Shown in pieces: positions 1,408-6,946 of a stretch of 34,731 nt of DNA. A program made the position numbers and the translations under genes. Within the stretch, counting starts at the first letter, position 1, and each line of letters starts with the position of its first letter. The notes under the pieces are model-generated. The model was not told where the DNA came from, made no database searches, and worked only from the letters and a program-made list of their open reading frames with translations. The DNA is from Saprospiraceae bacterium (GTDB lineage: Bacteria; Bacteroidota; Bacteroidia; Chitinophagales; JAHQVX01). The stretch lies in contig JAHQVX010000099.1 in the NCBI GenBank assembly GCA_019634125.1, positions 1 through 34,731 of the forward strand, given 5' to 3'.

Positions 1408-2130
1408 TTATTTTAGCTTTTTCAGCAAGGCTGCAGCCTCTTGTTGTCTTTCAAGACTAGGATCGTCGGCAATTTGCTGTGCAAGACTTATAGCTTCCTC
1501 TTTCTGACCCGTTTTAAGCAAGGTTAACATGAAGTACCAAGTAGCCTCTTCTCTAAGAAGATGCTTGGTTGTTGTATCAAAAAACGGAAGTGCTTCATTC
1601 GTCTGTTGGTTAGCTAACAGTGCTTGCCCATAGTAAAAGGAATCCAATGGAGACAATTTATTCAGACTGGCGACTTCCTCAAATGCTTGTATACTTCCAA
1701 CGTAATCTGCTTTAGAATAGCGCTCCATCGCTGTCCTAGCAAGGGTACTATCGACACTTCCGCGTTGAGTAGTGATGTCTGGATAAGGCTTATAATACGT
1801 TTGGAAAGCACTATCGGACGATAGACTTTTAGGAAGGAAAAATTGAACTGCCAATAAACCGAGAATTGCTACGGAAGCCGCCACTAAAAGTCCTTTTAGT
1901 GGCCCAATAGAACGCCGCTTAGTTGTTACCGCAGGAGCTTCATAGTCAGCTGAGATCTGTTTGAGTTGTTGTTTCAAGGCACTTCGCCCAGCGGCTTTCA
2001 CAATGGCTTCATCCAATAATGCTTTAAAGGATTCATCTTGCTCTCTATCGGCAAAAATCGCTCGCTCTTCCTCAGAAAGCGTATTCGCCATAAACCGTTC
2101 TATCAATTCTACATCTGATAATCTACTCAT
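1408..2130 (-). CDS. Membrane-anchored anti-sigma-like TPR protein
   Basis: A 240-aa protein with three parts: an N-terminal cytoplasmic domain (residues 1-75) opening LSDVELIERFMANTLSEEER, one transmembrane helix (about 78-99, LKGLLVAASVAILGLLAVQFF), and a C-terminal extracytoplasmic part (about 125-240) of helical TPR-like repeats (YSKADYVGSIQAFEEVASL, FYYGQALLANQQTNEALPFF). The layout (short N-terminal domain, one TM, periplasmic sensor) and its 4-nt ATGA overlap with the ECF sigma gene upstream suggest an anti-sigma factor. No zinc-binding HxxxCxxC motif is present, so it would be a non-ZAS type; the function is inferred from context. The coding sequence carries an 11-bp perfect inverted repeat just before the TM segment. 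It is probably translationally coupled to the sigma gene. Confidence 0.72.
   Translation of the reverse strand: MSRLSDVELIERFMANTLSEEERAIFADREQDESFKALLDEAIVKAAGRSALKQQLKQISADYEAPAVTTKRRSIGPLKGLLVAASVAILGLLAVQFFLPKSLSSDSAFQTYYKPYPDITTQRGSVDSTLARTAMERYSKADYVGSIQAFEEVASLNKLSPLDSFYYGQALLANQQTNEALPFFDTTTKHLLREEATWYFMLTLLKTGQKEEAISLAQQIADDPSLERQQEAAALLKKLK
1880..1903. repeat. Perfect inverted repeat in anti-sigma-like gene, 11-bp arms
   Basis: GCCACTAAAAG and CTTTTAGTGGC are separated by TC. It encodes the stretch at the start of the membrane helix. Confidence 0.85.
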
Positions 2131-2729
2131 GAAAGCAAGTTTTGGATAATGGATTGATAGTAGGGCGTTTCACGGACAACTTTTCTCAAACGTTTTAAAC
2201 AACGTGTTTTCTTATTCCGCGCAATTTGGTCGTTCTTATATTCCATGGCATGTGCTATCTCTTCCATAGTGGCTCGTTGATATAGACTCATAATCATCAC
2301 CCGCTTACAGTCTTCTCCAACATTTAAGAACAATTGTTCAATAAATGCTTCTGAATCAGGATTATAAAACTCCATATTCTCCGTTTCATTCGTTGTAGCC
2401 GAGGCATCTTCCCAAAACTCGGGAACAGCAATTGTGGCTTTGTTCTTTTTTAATTTATTCAGCCAAATAATTCGGCTTACAGAATATATATAGGTAGAAA
2501 TAGCACTTCGTAACTTAAATTGCCCACTTTTAATTTTCTCATAAAAAACAATGATGGCATCTTGCAACACATCTTCCGCATCAGTGGATGTACCATTGTT
2601 CGTCAAAACCATATGAGATACAGATTTGATACATCGTGCGTAGACTTGACCCAATGCATGATTCTCTTGCTTACTATGCCCAGAAAGTAAATGGACGATT
2701 TCTTGATCGGATAAGTTCTTTTTGCCCAT
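2127..2729 (-). CDS. RNA polymerase ECF-type sigma factor
   Basis: A sigma-70 family protein of about 200 aa with region 2 (EDVLQDAIIVFYEKI, then STYIYSVSRIIWLNKLKK, the core-binding and -10-recognising helices) and region 4 (CKRVMIMSLYQRATMEEIAHAM, then ARNKKTRCLKRLRK, the -35-recognising helix-turn-helix). It lacks regions 1 and 3, as ECF factors do. I chose the ATG at 2729; an in-frame GTG at 2741 would add MSST. Its stop overlaps the start of the TM/TPR protein (ATGA), the usual sigma/anti-sigma arrangement. Likely targets are the divergent lipoprotein/TPR-CHAT operon and the TSP3 lipoprotein, because both share an unusual bipartite upstream motif. No copy of that motif lies upstream of the sigma gene itself on its own strand, so direct autoregulation is not seen. 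Confidence 0.9.
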   Translation of the reverse strand: MGKKNLSDQEIVHLLSGHSKQENHALGQVYARCIKSVSHMVLTNNGTSTDAEDVLQDAIIVFYEKIKSGQFKLRSAISTYIYSVSRIIWLNKLKKNKATIAVPEFWEDASATTNETENMEFYNPDSEAFIEQLFLNVGEDCKRVMIMSLYQRATMEEIAHAMEYKNDQIARNKKTRCLKRLRKVVRETPYYQSIIQNLLS

Positions 2730-2772
2730 GGTTGAGGACACAAATTAATAACAAATCAGAAATCATGGTTCC

Positions 2773-2797: not shown

Positions 2798-2830
2798 GTG
2801 ATTACATCTATTAGGTTTGGTCTATAAACT
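2798..2830 (+). promoter_or_regulatory. Putative ECF-type promoter, copy 1
   Basis: GTGATTACATC, 12 nt, then TCTATAAACT, ending 23 nt before the lipoprotein ATG. An ungapped comparison with 6304-6336 gives 22 identical bases out of 33, concentrated in two blocks: GTGRTTACATC and TCTATNNACT. This two-block form fits -35 and -10 elements of an alternative sigma factor, and it does not resemble the housekeeping TTTG/TAnnTTTG promoter. Its recognition by the neighbouring sigma factor is inference. Confidence 0.6.
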
Positions 2831-2853
2831 GCCGGACTAAATAAAATCAAATT

Positions 2854-3420
2854 ATGTTACGAATTTCATTTTTACTATGCATTGTGCTGAGCGTTTTCGC
2901 GGGTTGTAACAATGTGGAATCAACAATTGAAGAAGATGTATTACTTAGAAAAAAACGAAGAACCATTACTGCAAATGCTGGAACATCGACGTCTTCCTCA
3001 GGCAGTTCTACGGACTGTTTCTTTAATGATATGCTCTATGCAGATCAAAACTCTTGGTTGTTTGATAATGGAGGCGGTTTTCCTCAAGAGTATTTTAGCT
3101 TTTTCTATGTACAATCAACGAGTATAATTCCAGAAACAGCTGTGGTTACACATATCGTGTGTAATTCAGATCCAAGTCTGGTTATCAATGATTGGGCTGA
3201 ATACCAAATTGTAGATGAGAATCAAGATGGCGTAATAGAATGTGTAGTGGATAGCCACAATGCTTCTAATCTATTGTCGGCTTCAACCCCAAAGATGGTG
3301 TTTATGGATATCGCTAATCGACCATGGCCACATAACGAACCACATAACTTTACAATTACTGTTCAGGTAGGTTCTGACACCTTACAATTTACATTCGATT
3401 ATTTAGTGGTTGCTCAGTAG
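2854..3420 (+). CDS. Hypothetical lipoprotein upstream of TPR-CHAT protein
   Basis: A 188-aa protein I do not recognise. Residues 1-18 form a lipoprotein signal peptide ending in the lipobox FAGC (lipidated Cys18). A Ser/Thr/Gly-rich linker follows (NAGTSTSSSGSSTD), then a probably beta-rich domain with three further cysteines and one acidic Ca2+-loop-like stretch (DENQDGVIE). It should sit on the periplasmic or outer-membrane surface. Its stop overlaps the GTG start of the TPR-CHAT gene by one base (TAGTG), so the two are translationally coupled, and the shared promoter motif puts it under the same proposed sigma factor. It may be the partner, ligand or sensor of the CHAT protein; this is inference from gene order only. 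Confidence 0.75.
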   Translation: MLRISFLLCIVLSVFAGCNNVESTIEEDVLLRKKRRTITANAGTSTSSSGSSTDCFFNDMLYADQNSWLFDNGGGFPQEYFSFFYVQSTSIIPETAVVTHIVCNSDPSLVINDWAEYQIVDENQDGVIECVVDSHNASNLLSASTPKMVFMDIANRPWPHNEPHNFTITVQVGSDTLQFTFDYLVVAQ

Positions 3421-6161
3421 TGAAGCAGATACTTTTAATACTTGTATTTAATTTAATCGGAAGCCCATTGCTGTTCAGCAATGGGCTTTTGAATGTAGAT
3501 TCCACATTCAACGCCACTTCAGAACATTTTGCCAGATATGATTATCCAGCAGCTATTTCTACCTTAAATCTTTTACTTGACCATTTTAATGGGCAAGATG
3601 ATTATGAAGTGGCTTACTTACTCATGTGGAAAGCCTATGCTTATGACCAATCCGAAGATTTCGCAGCTATGGAAGCGACTATCCAACAAATGGATACACT
3701 TAGAATACAAACATCGAATCCTGATGCGCGACTCTTTTTCGATAGTCGAGAAGAGTTTTTCTTAGAATGGAATTATTTAAAAGGCACTAATCTCTTTAAC
3801 CAAGGCAATTATGAAGCGGCCAAATTCTACTTCGGCCAACTCCACACTTTCGATCCAGAGGCTTGGAGCTTTGATGTAGTCCTCCCGCTTATCAATGCAG
3901 CTGTGGCCATGCAACGAACTGGTGATTACTCAAAAGCTATTTCTTATCTAGAAACAGCTTATCCCCTAGTGCAAACTAACAGTGTAAAACTTGACCTCAT
4001 CGACAATCTGGTAACCGCATACATTGAGTTAGGCCAGTTTGAATCAGCTCAAAAAAGATTAAACCAAGTAGAAGAAAATGGTTGGTTAGATGGCGCAAAA
4101 ATTTCTGACCAAGCTTATTTTTTGATTCATGCCTTTCATGTGGAAGCGTTGTTAGGTCATTCTGAATCTTTTGAAGCCTATCTCAAGAAAGCTGAAGCTA
4201 TTGCGCCTAAATTGGAAAGTAGAGAACTTGTCCACCTTAAGCGTATTCGCGCAAAAGCCCATCAAGCGCTTGGCAATCCTGAAGCAGCAGAAGTTAGTTT
4301 TGAAGCAGCAGAAAAAGAACTGCTTGCCCCCAATAGTTACTTTTCGGCACAACATGGCAAATACGCTCAATTACTCCTAGAAATGGGAAAGAATTACGAA
4401 GCAAAAAAGGGTTACTCCAAGGCATTATCCGTTTACCAGAAAGGATTAGGCGTTCTTCTACCTAACTTCGAATACAAGAATAACGAAGAACATCCACAGG
4501 ATTTAACGTCCACTTCTAGAAGCTTTCTCTATGACCTCTTAATCGCTAAAGCTGAAGTACTTCACCATCAAGAAAACTTTAAAGGCGCTTTAAAAAACTA
4601 TGAATTAGCAGCAGAAGTGGTTGAAAACACCATTCGATACGCAACATTCACTAAGGAATCCACCTATCGTTTATTAAAAACTGCCAAGCAAAACAACGAA
4701 TCGGCCATTGACCTTGCATTTACAACCCAAGACTATAAAACGGCCTTCTATTTCTCCCAAAAAAGCCATGCGTTGTATCTGCAGAGCAATCTCGATATTC
4801 ATGCAGCCAAAATCCAAGCTGGGGTTCCCGACTCCTTACTTCAACAAGAGCGTAACCTGAAACTTGACATTGCAGCTTATGAAAACCGTTCAAAGAGCCG
4901 GCAAGAGCTGTCCCAAAATTTAAGAACAGCGGAATTGAATTACGATGTCTTTGTGAACCAACTTCGTGCCGACTATCCCATTTATACTTTACTTCAGGTA
5001 CCCGAAAAGATCTCTGTTTCGGCCATTCGAAAACGCCAACGCAAAAACAAGAGCAGTTACTTAGAGTATTTTCTGGGCGAGAAGTCCTTGTATATTTTCT
5101 CTATCAATTCAAAAGGGCTTTCTGTTCAACGTCAAGAAAATACACAGGCATTACGTGCATCTATTTCCCAATTAAACCAAGCTATTACAGAACCTTGGGA
5201 CAATTCAACCTCGGTGGAGAATAGTAAGATCAAGTTTGCAGAAATTGCTCATCAACTGTATCAAGTACTCATCGAACCGATTCAGGGACACTTAAAGAAA
5301 AAAATCACCATTATTCCAGATGACCTACTCGCCACACTACCTTTCGAAGTATTACTTCAATCAAAGAATAGTTTATCGTATAAAACGATGGATTATCTAA
5401 TTCGAGACTATGAGATCAGCTATAGCTATTCTGCTCAAATGTATTCAAATCAAGCAGGCTTGGATAGAGATGAAGGAGTAAGATCCGTAGTCTTTGCCCC
5501 AAGTTTTACGCCTTCACAAAACCTAGTTCAATTAGCGGGGAATCAGGAAGAAGCTGAGTACTTAAAAACGCGTTTTGAGGCTATAGCCTATACTGACTCT
5601 TTAGCCACAAAAAAAGAGTTCTTCAAAAATATGCGTGACTTCGAAGTCATACATTTGGCCACACACGCCACTGTTGACAGCACACAGGCTTACATCGCAT
5701 TCTATGGAGACAGCACGGATTATCGCTTGGACTTGAATGAGATTTATGACTTGAATTTACAAGCGGAAATGGTCGTCCTAAGTGCATGTGAAACATTAAA
5801 AGGCCAACTTCAAGATGGTGAAGGCATTCTGAATTTATCGCGAGCCTTTTCTACTGCGGGAAGTAAAAGTACTATAGCTACGCTTTGGTCCGTTAACGAT
5901 ATCCAAAGTAGTAAGCTCATCCAAGGGTTTTACGAAAATTTAAGTGAGGGCATGTCGAAAGATGAAGCGTTAAGGAATGCTAAAATCAACTATATCGAGA
6001 ACGAACCTATAGTAGCTCCTTACTTCTGGGCGGCATTTACGCCTACTGGCAATATGCAAGCACTAAAGCCTGCCAAACGTTTTCCATATTTTCTTATGGT
6101 CATACCACTATTATTGTTGGCTCTATTGGGCGTCTTTTTGCTCAAGAAGAATAGGCATTAG
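3420..6161 (+). CDS. Exported, membrane-anchored TPR-CHAT (caspase-like) protein
   Basis: A 913-aa protein. Residues 1-22 look like a signal peptide (QILLILVFNLIGSPLLFSNG). About 30-450 are TPR-like helical repeats (AISTLNLLLDHF, AAKFYFGQLHTF, KAISYLETAYPL, KALSVYQKGLG, ALKNYELAAEVV). A charged coiled-coil stretch follows (about 460-510), then a CHAT domain (about 590-880) with the caspase-type dyad: His749 in HLATHA and Cys790 in VVLSACETLKG. A C-terminal TM helix (about 888-908) is followed by KKNRH. The predicted topology places TPR and CHAT parts in the periplasm. The GTG start is chosen because it overlaps the preceding stop codon and gives a good signal peptide. CHAT domains are cysteine peptidases related to separase and caspases; the substrate here is unknown. 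A 13-bp perfect hairpin plus T-run lies 41 nt inside the gene and might attenuate transcription. Confidence 0.88.
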   Translation: MKQILLILVFNLIGSPLLFSNGLLNVDSTFNATSEHFARYDYPAAISTLNLLLDHFNGQDDYEVAYLLMWKAYAYDQSEDFAAMEATIQQMDTLRIQTSNPDARLFFDSREEFFLEWNYLKGTNLFNQGNYEAAKFYFGQLHTFDPEAWSFDVVLPLINAAVAMQRTGDYSKAISYLETAYPLVQTNSVKLDLIDNLVTAYIELGQFESAQKRLNQVEENGWLDGAKISDQAYFLIHAFHVEALLGHSESFEAYLKKAEAIAPKLESRELVHLKRIRAKAHQALGNPEAAEVSFEAAEKELLAPNSYFSAQHGKYAQLLLEMGKNYEAKKGYSKALSVYQKGLGVLLPNFEYKNNEEHPQDLTSTSRSFLYDLLIAKAEVLHHQENFKGALKNYELAAEVVENTIRYATFTKESTYRLLKTAKQNNESAIDLAFTTQDYKTAFYFSQKSHALYLQSNLDIHAAKIQAGVPDSLLQQERNLKLDIAAYENRSKSRQELSQNLRTAELNYDVFVNQLRADYPIYTLLQVPEKISVSAIRKRQRKNKSSYLEYFLGEKSLYIFSINSKGLSVQRQENTQALRASISQLNQAITEPWDNSTSVENSKIKFAEIAHQLYQVLIEPIQGHLKKKITIIPDDLLATLPFEVLLQSKNSLSYKTMDYLIRDYEISYSYSAQMYSNQAGLDRDEGVRSVVFAPSFTPSQNLVQLAGNQEEAEYLKTRFEAIAYTDSLATKKEFFKNMRDFEVIHLATHATVDSTQAYIAFYGDSTDYRLDLNEIYDLNLQAEMVVLSACETLKGQLQDGEGILNLSRAFSTAGSKSTIATLWSVNDIQSSKLIQGFYENLSEGMSKDEALRNAKINYIENEPIVAPYFWAAFTPTGNMQALKPAKRFPYFLMVIPLLLLALLGVFLLKKNRH
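3461..3488 (+). repeat. Perfect 13-bp hairpin in the 5' end of the TPR-CHAT gene
   Basis: AAGCCCATTGCTG and CAGCAATGGGCTT are separated by TT and followed by two more T. It spans codons 14-23 (end of the signal peptide). It has the form of a weak intrinsic terminator or a translation-blocking hairpin placed inside the second gene of the operon. Confidence 0.8.
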
Positions 6162-6162
6162 G

Positions 6163-6183
6163 AAGTAATAATAGTTATTGCTT
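6163..6183 (+). terminator. Weak AT-rich hairpin after TPR-CHAT gene
   Basis: AAGTAATAA and TTATTGCTT can pair, with one G-U wobble, around a TAG loop immediately after the stop codon. The stem is AT-rich and is not followed by a clean T-tract, so termination here is uncertain. Confidence 0.3.
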
Positions 6184-6294
6184 TATTGGCTTCTTTTATG
6201 AATACCTGACTATCGACTTCAGTCCATAGCATTACTAAGTGTTTAGCTGGATGACTGATCTATACGTTCACTAAATCGCCCAGTGACATTTTTT

Positions 6295-6304
6295 CTTGTA
6301 CAAG
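6295..6304. repeat. 10-bp palindrome abutting the second ECF-type promoter
   Basis: CTTGTACAAG, a perfect palindrome whose last G is the first G of the motif at 6304. The first promoter copy also has an inverted repeat directly upstream (2773-2793), but the sequences differ. Confidence 0.45.
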
Positions 6305-6336
6305 TGGTTACATCCCTTCAAAATGATCTATGTACT
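6304..6336 (+). promoter_or_regulatory. Putative ECF-type promoter, copy 2
   Basis: GTGGTTACATC, 12 nt, then TCTATGTACT, 33 nt before the ATG of the TSP3 lipoprotein. It matches copy 1 (2798-2830) base for base in both blocks and in spacing. It therefore ties the disrupted lipoprotein gene to the same regulon as the lipoprotein/TPR-CHAT operon. Confidence 0.6.
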
Positions 6337-6369: not shown

Positions 6370-6946
6370 ATGAAACATTTATTTTTTTTGACTATTCTAT
6401 ATCCACAATGATTTTTTCTTGTACAGAGAGTGTTGACCAAATTGTAGATCCAGAAGCAGTTCTTAGGGGCCAAGAAATCCATGTGATGATCCACTTATAG
6501 ATTGTACAGATACTGATGGCGATAGCATTTATGATTATGAAGATAATTGCCCTGAAGTATATAATCCAAACCAGCAAGATAGTGATCAAGATGGTATTGG
6601 GGATGCTTGTGACGATGACAATGGAGATGGGGATGGAGACCAATACACCTGCACTTCATCTGCATCAGGCGTAGTAGCTGGTTGTAATTTCAGAAATTAC
6701 GATGTAGAAGTTGAAATGTCTTATGATGTAGTAAATGGCAGCGCGACAAACATTGTAATCAACAGTGTGAGTGTAAGTGGTGCAGATTCCTACACTTATT
6801 TCTACAATGGTTTCGGAGCTACTGTTGTGATGACTTTTGATACGGAGAATGCTTCAGGATGTGAGCAAACGGTTCAGCAAGTCGTGATTTTCTCAGCAGA
6901 CGGCTGTAGGAATGGTGATGATCCGATCATCCCCATCGACAAATAA
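6370..6946 (+). pseudogene. TSP3-repeat lipoprotein, two apparent frameshifts
   Basis: No single frame covers this gene, but three frames join into one coherent protein. Frame 1 starts at ATG 6370 (MKHLFFLTIL). Frame 2 supplies ISTMIFSC (lipobox, Cys) and [16 protein letters not shown] up to about 6465. Frame 3 runs from about 6460 to the TAA at 6944-6946. Frame 3 carries two thrombospondin type 3-like Ca2+-binding repeats ([16 protein letters not shown], then [14 protein letters not shown]) and a Cys-containing domain of about 90 residues. Each junction is explained by one missing base, near 6380-6400 and near 6455-6470 (a GGGG run). It is either a recent pseudogene, a phase-variable gene, or two sequencing deletions. 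The ECF-type motif 33 nt upstream and the terminator downstream are intact. Confidence 0.7.

Follow-up and report, generated by a model that had tools for sequence, protein, structure and literature searches.

A 33-base motif upstream of two lipoprotein genes of a Saprospiraceae bacterium is very probably a promoter read by the extracytoplasmic function (ECF) sigma factor encoded beside it. The window, a stretch of 34,731 nucleotides (contig JAHQVX010000099.1), carries two copies of the motif, and a third lies elsewhere in the genome. We infer recognition by the sigma factor from the conservation and the geometry of the sequence blocks. As the arrangement of sigma factor, promoter and lipoprotein gene recurs in distant relatives, the locus points to an uncharacterised envelope-response regulon, and our best reading is an envelope response in which an ECF sigma factor drives genes for lipoproteins and for a CHAT protease. 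To our knowledge, promoter specificity has been worked out for few ECF sigma factors of Bacteroidota, and the role of secreted CHAT (caspase-like) proteases outside CRISPR and conflict systems is unclear. The analysis ties a searchable -35/-10 pair to one Bacteroidota ECF sigma family, leads to the prediction that Chitinophagaceae, Saprospiraceae and Flavobacteriaceae have small lipoprotein regulons, and suggests a link between secreted CHAT proteases and an envelope sigma response that is testable in culturable strains such as Chitinophaga pinensis.

The repeated motif in the source genome

Site 1 (GTGATTACATCTATTAGGTTTGGTCTATAAACT, 2798-2830) and site 2 (GTGGTTACATCCCTTCAAAATGATCTATGTACT, 6304-6336) share 22/33 bases. 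Re-alignment returned exactly the coordinates and identity of the original prediction, as well as the distances it gave to the start codons: site 1 stops 23 nt short of the ATG at 2854, and site 2 stops 33 nt short of the one at 6370. The likeness is largely limited to the motif, since the flanks match at only 8/50 bases upstream and 11/22 downstream. Taken alone, the match is mildly unusual and suggestive only: 22/33 was reached as the best match between the two intergenic regions in 16 of 1000 dinucleotide shuffles, and the two-block form (18/21), whose blocks were chosen post hoc, in none of 1000. The element boundaries drawn initially have to be narrowed to a conserved core, GGTTAC-N16/17-TATWAA; the additional GTG, ATC and ACT bases are local to this genome. 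Sites 1 to 3 all present -35/-10 blocks at fixed spacing shortly before their targets, as is characteristic of ECF promoters (Table 1). The spacer of site 1 additionally contains, at 2812-2819, TAGGTTTG, a perfect TANNTTTG -7 box of the Bacteroidota housekeeping type and possibly a second promoter overlapping the site.

Table 1. Coordinates of the promoter elements and genes discussed in the text
Feature	Position	Strand	Basis
Putative anti-sigma factor, 240 aa, directly downstream of sigma gene	1408..2130	-	
ECF sigma factor, 204 aa from GTG 2741 or 200 aa from ATG 2729	2127..2741	-	
Weak candidate promoter of sigma gene, GGAACC-N16-TATTAA	2745..2772	-	
Site 1 -35 element GATTAC, 1 base off GGTTAC consensus	2800..2805	+	alignment and spacing
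Site 1 -10 element TATAAA, 17 nt after -35	2823..2828	+	alignment and spacing
Lipoprotein 1, 188 aa, lipobox VFAGC, first gene behind site 1	2854..3420	+	
TPR-CHAT protein, 913 aa	3420..6161	+	
Site 2 -35 element GGTTAC	6306..6311	+	alignment and genome scan
Site 2 -10 element TATGTA, 17 nt after -35	6329..6334	+	alignment and genome scan
Lipoprotein 2 gene, signal peptide with FSC lipobox, TSP_3 repeat	6370..6946	+	frame broken
Site 3, GGTTAC-N17-TATAAA, exact consensus match	C108:16998-17030		genome scan

The motif had been proposed to define a regulon that could be searched genome-wide, and a scan of the source genome (2.2 Mb, 83% complete), with a reversed control alongside, indeed uncovered a third site before a lipoprotein ORF on a contig unlinked to the window (C108). 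When up to 3 mismatches are allowed, the pattern GTKRTTACATC-N12-TCTATNNACT is found at four places in the genome, namely sites 1 and 2, C108:16998-17030 (site 3, 2 mismatches) and one on contig C96. From base composition, about 0.19 matches would be expected genome-wide at up to 2 mismatches, and one was found, that on C108; this third site supplies independent evidence for the motif. The alternative form GRTTACATC-N12..14-CTATRWAC matches sites 1 to 3 and nothing else in the genome, with no match in the reversed control, and a genome search with a profile of the three sites at E<=10 returned no further sites.

The 12-base core with 1 mismatch is not enriched, with 12 matches vs 19 in the reversed control; as these short-core counts do not rise above the control, it is the longer motif and the placement of its sites that carry the claim. 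Among the 12 core matches, sites 1 to 3 are the only intergenic ones with a gene start close behind, and the other nine fall within coding stretches (8) or have no ORF behind them (1). Four further candidates were rejected: C96:1288, which has 3 mismatches to the long motif and lies inside an ORF, and C9:8857, C76:881 and C54:1188, which fit relaxed patterns yet sit inside coding stretches. The long motif does not behave like background: it occurs at exactly three sites, each intergenic and followed after 22-33 nt by an ORF whose product has a lipobox signal peptide, and the three proteins are mutually non-homologous. Of the enrichment to be tested upstream of lipoprotein or CHAT genes, the lipoprotein part was borne out (3/3 sites), and CHAT is reached in this genome only because its gene shares the operon of site 1. 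Since part of the genome is missing from the assembly, further regulon members may have escaped the scan.

Sigma factor, putative anti-sigma factor and predicted target genes

The neighbouring gene is an ECF sigma gene, as predicted: its product, of about 200 aa with sigma2 and sigma4 domains, belongs to the ECF (group IV) sigma-70 factors and matches NCBIfam TIGR02937 at 53 bits vs a cut-off of 42.9 (residues 28-187), and Pfam Sigma70_r2 scores just under cut-off. The protein encoded directly downstream has a cytoplasmic N-terminal domain, one transmembrane helix and a periplasmic TPR domain, the layout expected of a membrane anti-sigma factor, and on these sequence features we consider it a putative one. 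Its N-terminal 95 residues are homologous to a domain that precedes HtrA in Chitinophagaceae (hhalign 95.9%, E 6e-9), where the anti-sigma-like domain is fused to an HtrA/trypsin-like protease encoded directly after the sigma gene (L095:4588-5676 and similar). In roughly half of the named loci, a homologue of the window protein is encoded after the sigma gene.

Both genes behind sites 1 and 2 had been described as lipoprotein genes. Lipobox signals are present in each, and the second is not an intact ORF in the assembly: its frame is broken twice (6370-6560), both times near homopolymer runs, so it is either a pseudogene or the product of assembly errors. Lipoprotein 1 has no match in Pfam or NCBIfam. 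Its stop codon is overlapped by the start of the TPR-CHAT gene, and the two form one operon behind site 1. The TPR-CHAT protein carries an N-terminal signal peptide, a CHAT domain (PF12770, E 1.6e-60; His motif HLATH at 745, Cys motif LSAC at 787) and a C-terminal transmembrane anchor. A PDB sequence search with this protein gave no match, its use as a query against the genome contigs returned no relatives, and none of the locus proteins matched the PADLOC models. The site 3 target is a 214-aa ORF (L003:1556-2200) that starts 22 nt after the site, has a lipoprotein signal (VFGIFSC) and matches the NCBIfam model "bacteriocin fulvocin C-related" (NF033852) at 73 bits vs a cut-off of 35.

Conservation beside orthologous sigma genes and alternative readings

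Homologous sigma factors are encoded in 273/399 genomes of the window's order at E<=1e-12, and relatives found via sigma alignment include Kordia, Aequorivita, Dokdonia, Saprospiraceae and Chitinophagaceae, the nearest being only about 40% identical to the window's sigma factor. For 81 non-redundant upstream regions, hexamers lying no more than 100 nt from the sigma start were counted and compared with shuffles. GGTTAC is the commonest of all hexamers, present in 49/81 regions (shuffle mean 1.0, max 5) and lacking near the sigma start in about 40% of them, and it appears on the divergent strand in 38/81 (shuffle mean 3.8). Most copies lie 30-45 nt before the sigma start, and among the copies followed by TATWAA the spacer is 16-17 nt in 24/29 sigma-strand and 22/23 divergent cases. 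The -35 block is kept across Bacteroidota at orthologous loci, where the original prediction required conservation, and a -10-like block at fixed spacing is kept in many. The -10 element differs between clades: Kordia has GGTTAC-N16-CATA, and in some Flavobacteriaceae the CATA lies four bases further from GGTTAC.

In 24/38 loci with a divergent GGTTAC, the gene on that side encodes a protein with a lipobox signal; these lipoproteins are 60-80 aa long in Chitinophagaceae, and the one in Kordia has 166 aa. The product in several Flavobacteriaceae is a secreted protein, about 161-182 aa in length, and Pfam assigns a T9SS sorting tail to one of them. Across eight named genomes, GGTTAC-N15/16-GTATWAA matches 31 times vs 8 in the control. 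Besides the sigma and divergent sites, a site is found in four Chitinophaga genomes 16-18 nt ahead of a lipoprotein ORF unlinked to the sigma gene (DUF4349 in 3/3 proteins scanned), and in Kordia an additional exact match precedes a secreted-protein gene. These downstream gene types associate the sigma family with lipoprotein and secreted-protein promoters well beyond the window.

Together, genome specificity and conservation at orthologous sigma genes support the proposal that the blocks are -35/-10 elements of the local sigma factor. We hold it to be highly likely that they belong to promoters of the ECF factor at 2127-2741, a reading that includes the predicted release from an anti-sigma factor and the lipoprotein/CHAT regulon. 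Several observations stand against it: site 1 has GATTAC, not GGTTAC; the window sigma gene has no good GGTTAC promoter of its own, unlike in Chitinophagaceae; the nearest relatives are distant in sigma sequence, with -10 elements that vary by clade; GGTTAC is missing near the sigma start in about 40% of the non-redundant regions; and the short core is no commoner than in the control. In place of the motif found upstream of the relatives' sigma genes, which suggests autoregulation, the window has only the degenerate candidate listed in Table 1, whose -10 element and spacing fit the relatives and whose -35 element is mismatched at 3/6 positions.

It is unlikely that the blocks instead form an operator of a dedicated transcription factor, with the sigma gene adjacent by chance. 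A dimeric regulator could likewise bind two conserved blocks, but these are neither palindromic nor repeats of each other, GGTTAC and TATWAA at 16-17 nt follow ECF geometry at 30-45 nt before start codons, and from genus to genus they are conserved along with the sigma gene, in many cases flanking a divergent region on either side. Housekeeping promoters of Bacteroidota consist of TTTG and a TANNTTTG -7 box, and the box within the site 1 spacer fits this type; that all the sites are such ordinary promoters is nonetheless very improbable, as sites 2 and 3 lack the box, the conserved blocks do not resemble it and the motif is rare in the genome. Recent duplication could account for two lipoprotein genes with similar upstream regions in one locus, but it is already refuted by the dissimilar proteins (best E 4.4), the poorly matching upstream flanks and a third target gene that is neither related nor linked to them. 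Chance similarity, compatible with the 1.6% of shuffles that reach the pairwise identity alone, has a negligible probability given a third, equally placed site and a conservation in relatives that excludes it for practical purposes.

Proposed mechanism and comparison with known systems

In the preferred reading as an ECF system, RNA polymerase with the sigma factor would read a GGTTAC -35 element (here GRTTACATC) and a TATWAA-like -10 element (here TCTATRWAC). The single-pass membrane anti-sigma factor would hold the sigma factor through its cytoplasmic N-terminal domain, and an envelope signal at the periplasmic TPR domain would lead to its release. The freed sigma factor would then switch on the lipoprotein 1-CHAT operon, lipoprotein 2 and the unlinked fulvocin C-related lipoprotein. 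The TPR-CHAT protein, which is secreted and membrane-anchored, may act as an effector, or it may be the protease that cleaves the anti-sigma factor, taking the part that the fused HtrA protease would have in Chitinophagaceae.

The RpoE-RseA-DegS envelope stress response likewise pairs an ECF sigma factor with a membrane anti-sigma factor, and the fusion of the Chitinophagaceae anti-sigma domain to an HtrA/DegS-like protease adds to the resemblance. It differs in its promoter, and the window's protease candidate is a separate CHAT protein. Our literature search, with the main ECF classification papers outside its scope, found no report of GGTTAC promoters of Bacteroidota ECF factors, and a search on CHAT plus ECF found nothing on the window's system.

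The closest parallel in regulon content is EcfO-Reo with the NigD lipoproteins of Bacteroides/Phocaeicola, described in two reports as an ECF/anti-sigma pair with several lipoproteins in its regulon and a proposed role in outer-membrane stress sensing (PMC9308784, PMC13114119); the pair is also named Das1-Dma1, as cited in PMC12596196. Both systems involve an ECF pair controlling lipoproteins, the window's lipoprotein regulon being a predicted one. The anti-sigma factor Reo is very large, spans both membranes and has an outer-membrane barrel, whereas the window's counterpart is a single-pass TPR protein of 240 aa without a barrel; for this reason the window system is not an EcfO-Reo member. 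Its regulon also differs in including a TPR-CHAT protease gene, the comparison being one of architecture and regulon, not promoter sequence.

The SM6 ECF promoter class of Flavobacterium psychrophilum was found from sequence and start sites; the available text describes no GGTTAC -35 element for it, and the window's -10 elements, TATAAA and TATGTA, set it apart from SM6 (PMC9723704). Conflict systems combining caspase, ECF sigma and TPR components in EACC2 neighbourhoods differ in their EACC2 and TRADD-N domains, with no lipoprotein promoter described in the text available (PMC8195603).

More tentatively, the window may represent an undescribed ECF envelope system widespread in Bacteroidota, in which one sigma family reads a near-invariant GGTTAC -35 element that drives an adjacent gene for a lipoprotein or secreted protein, and the anti-sigma domain is combined interchangeably with an HtrA-like protease (Chitinophagaceae) or with TPR plus CHAT; we regard this as possible but doubtful. 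Where the TPR plus secreted CHAT alternative applies (window, Kordia and others), a periplasmic caspase-like protease would control the sigma factor. A TPR-CHAT gene lies within 4 kb of the sigma gene in 38/80 named loci.

Two minor observations concern the relatives. In Chitinophaga, the lipoprotein ORFs of L151, L152, L161 and L174, behind GGTTAC-N16/17-GTATWAA, are a predicted second sigma target. Four Flavobacteriaceae loci (L055, L057, L063 and L068) have a divergent GGTTACA followed about 20 nt later by GACATA, and on the sigma side a conserved TATTTTTATTACA block, a different -10 layout.
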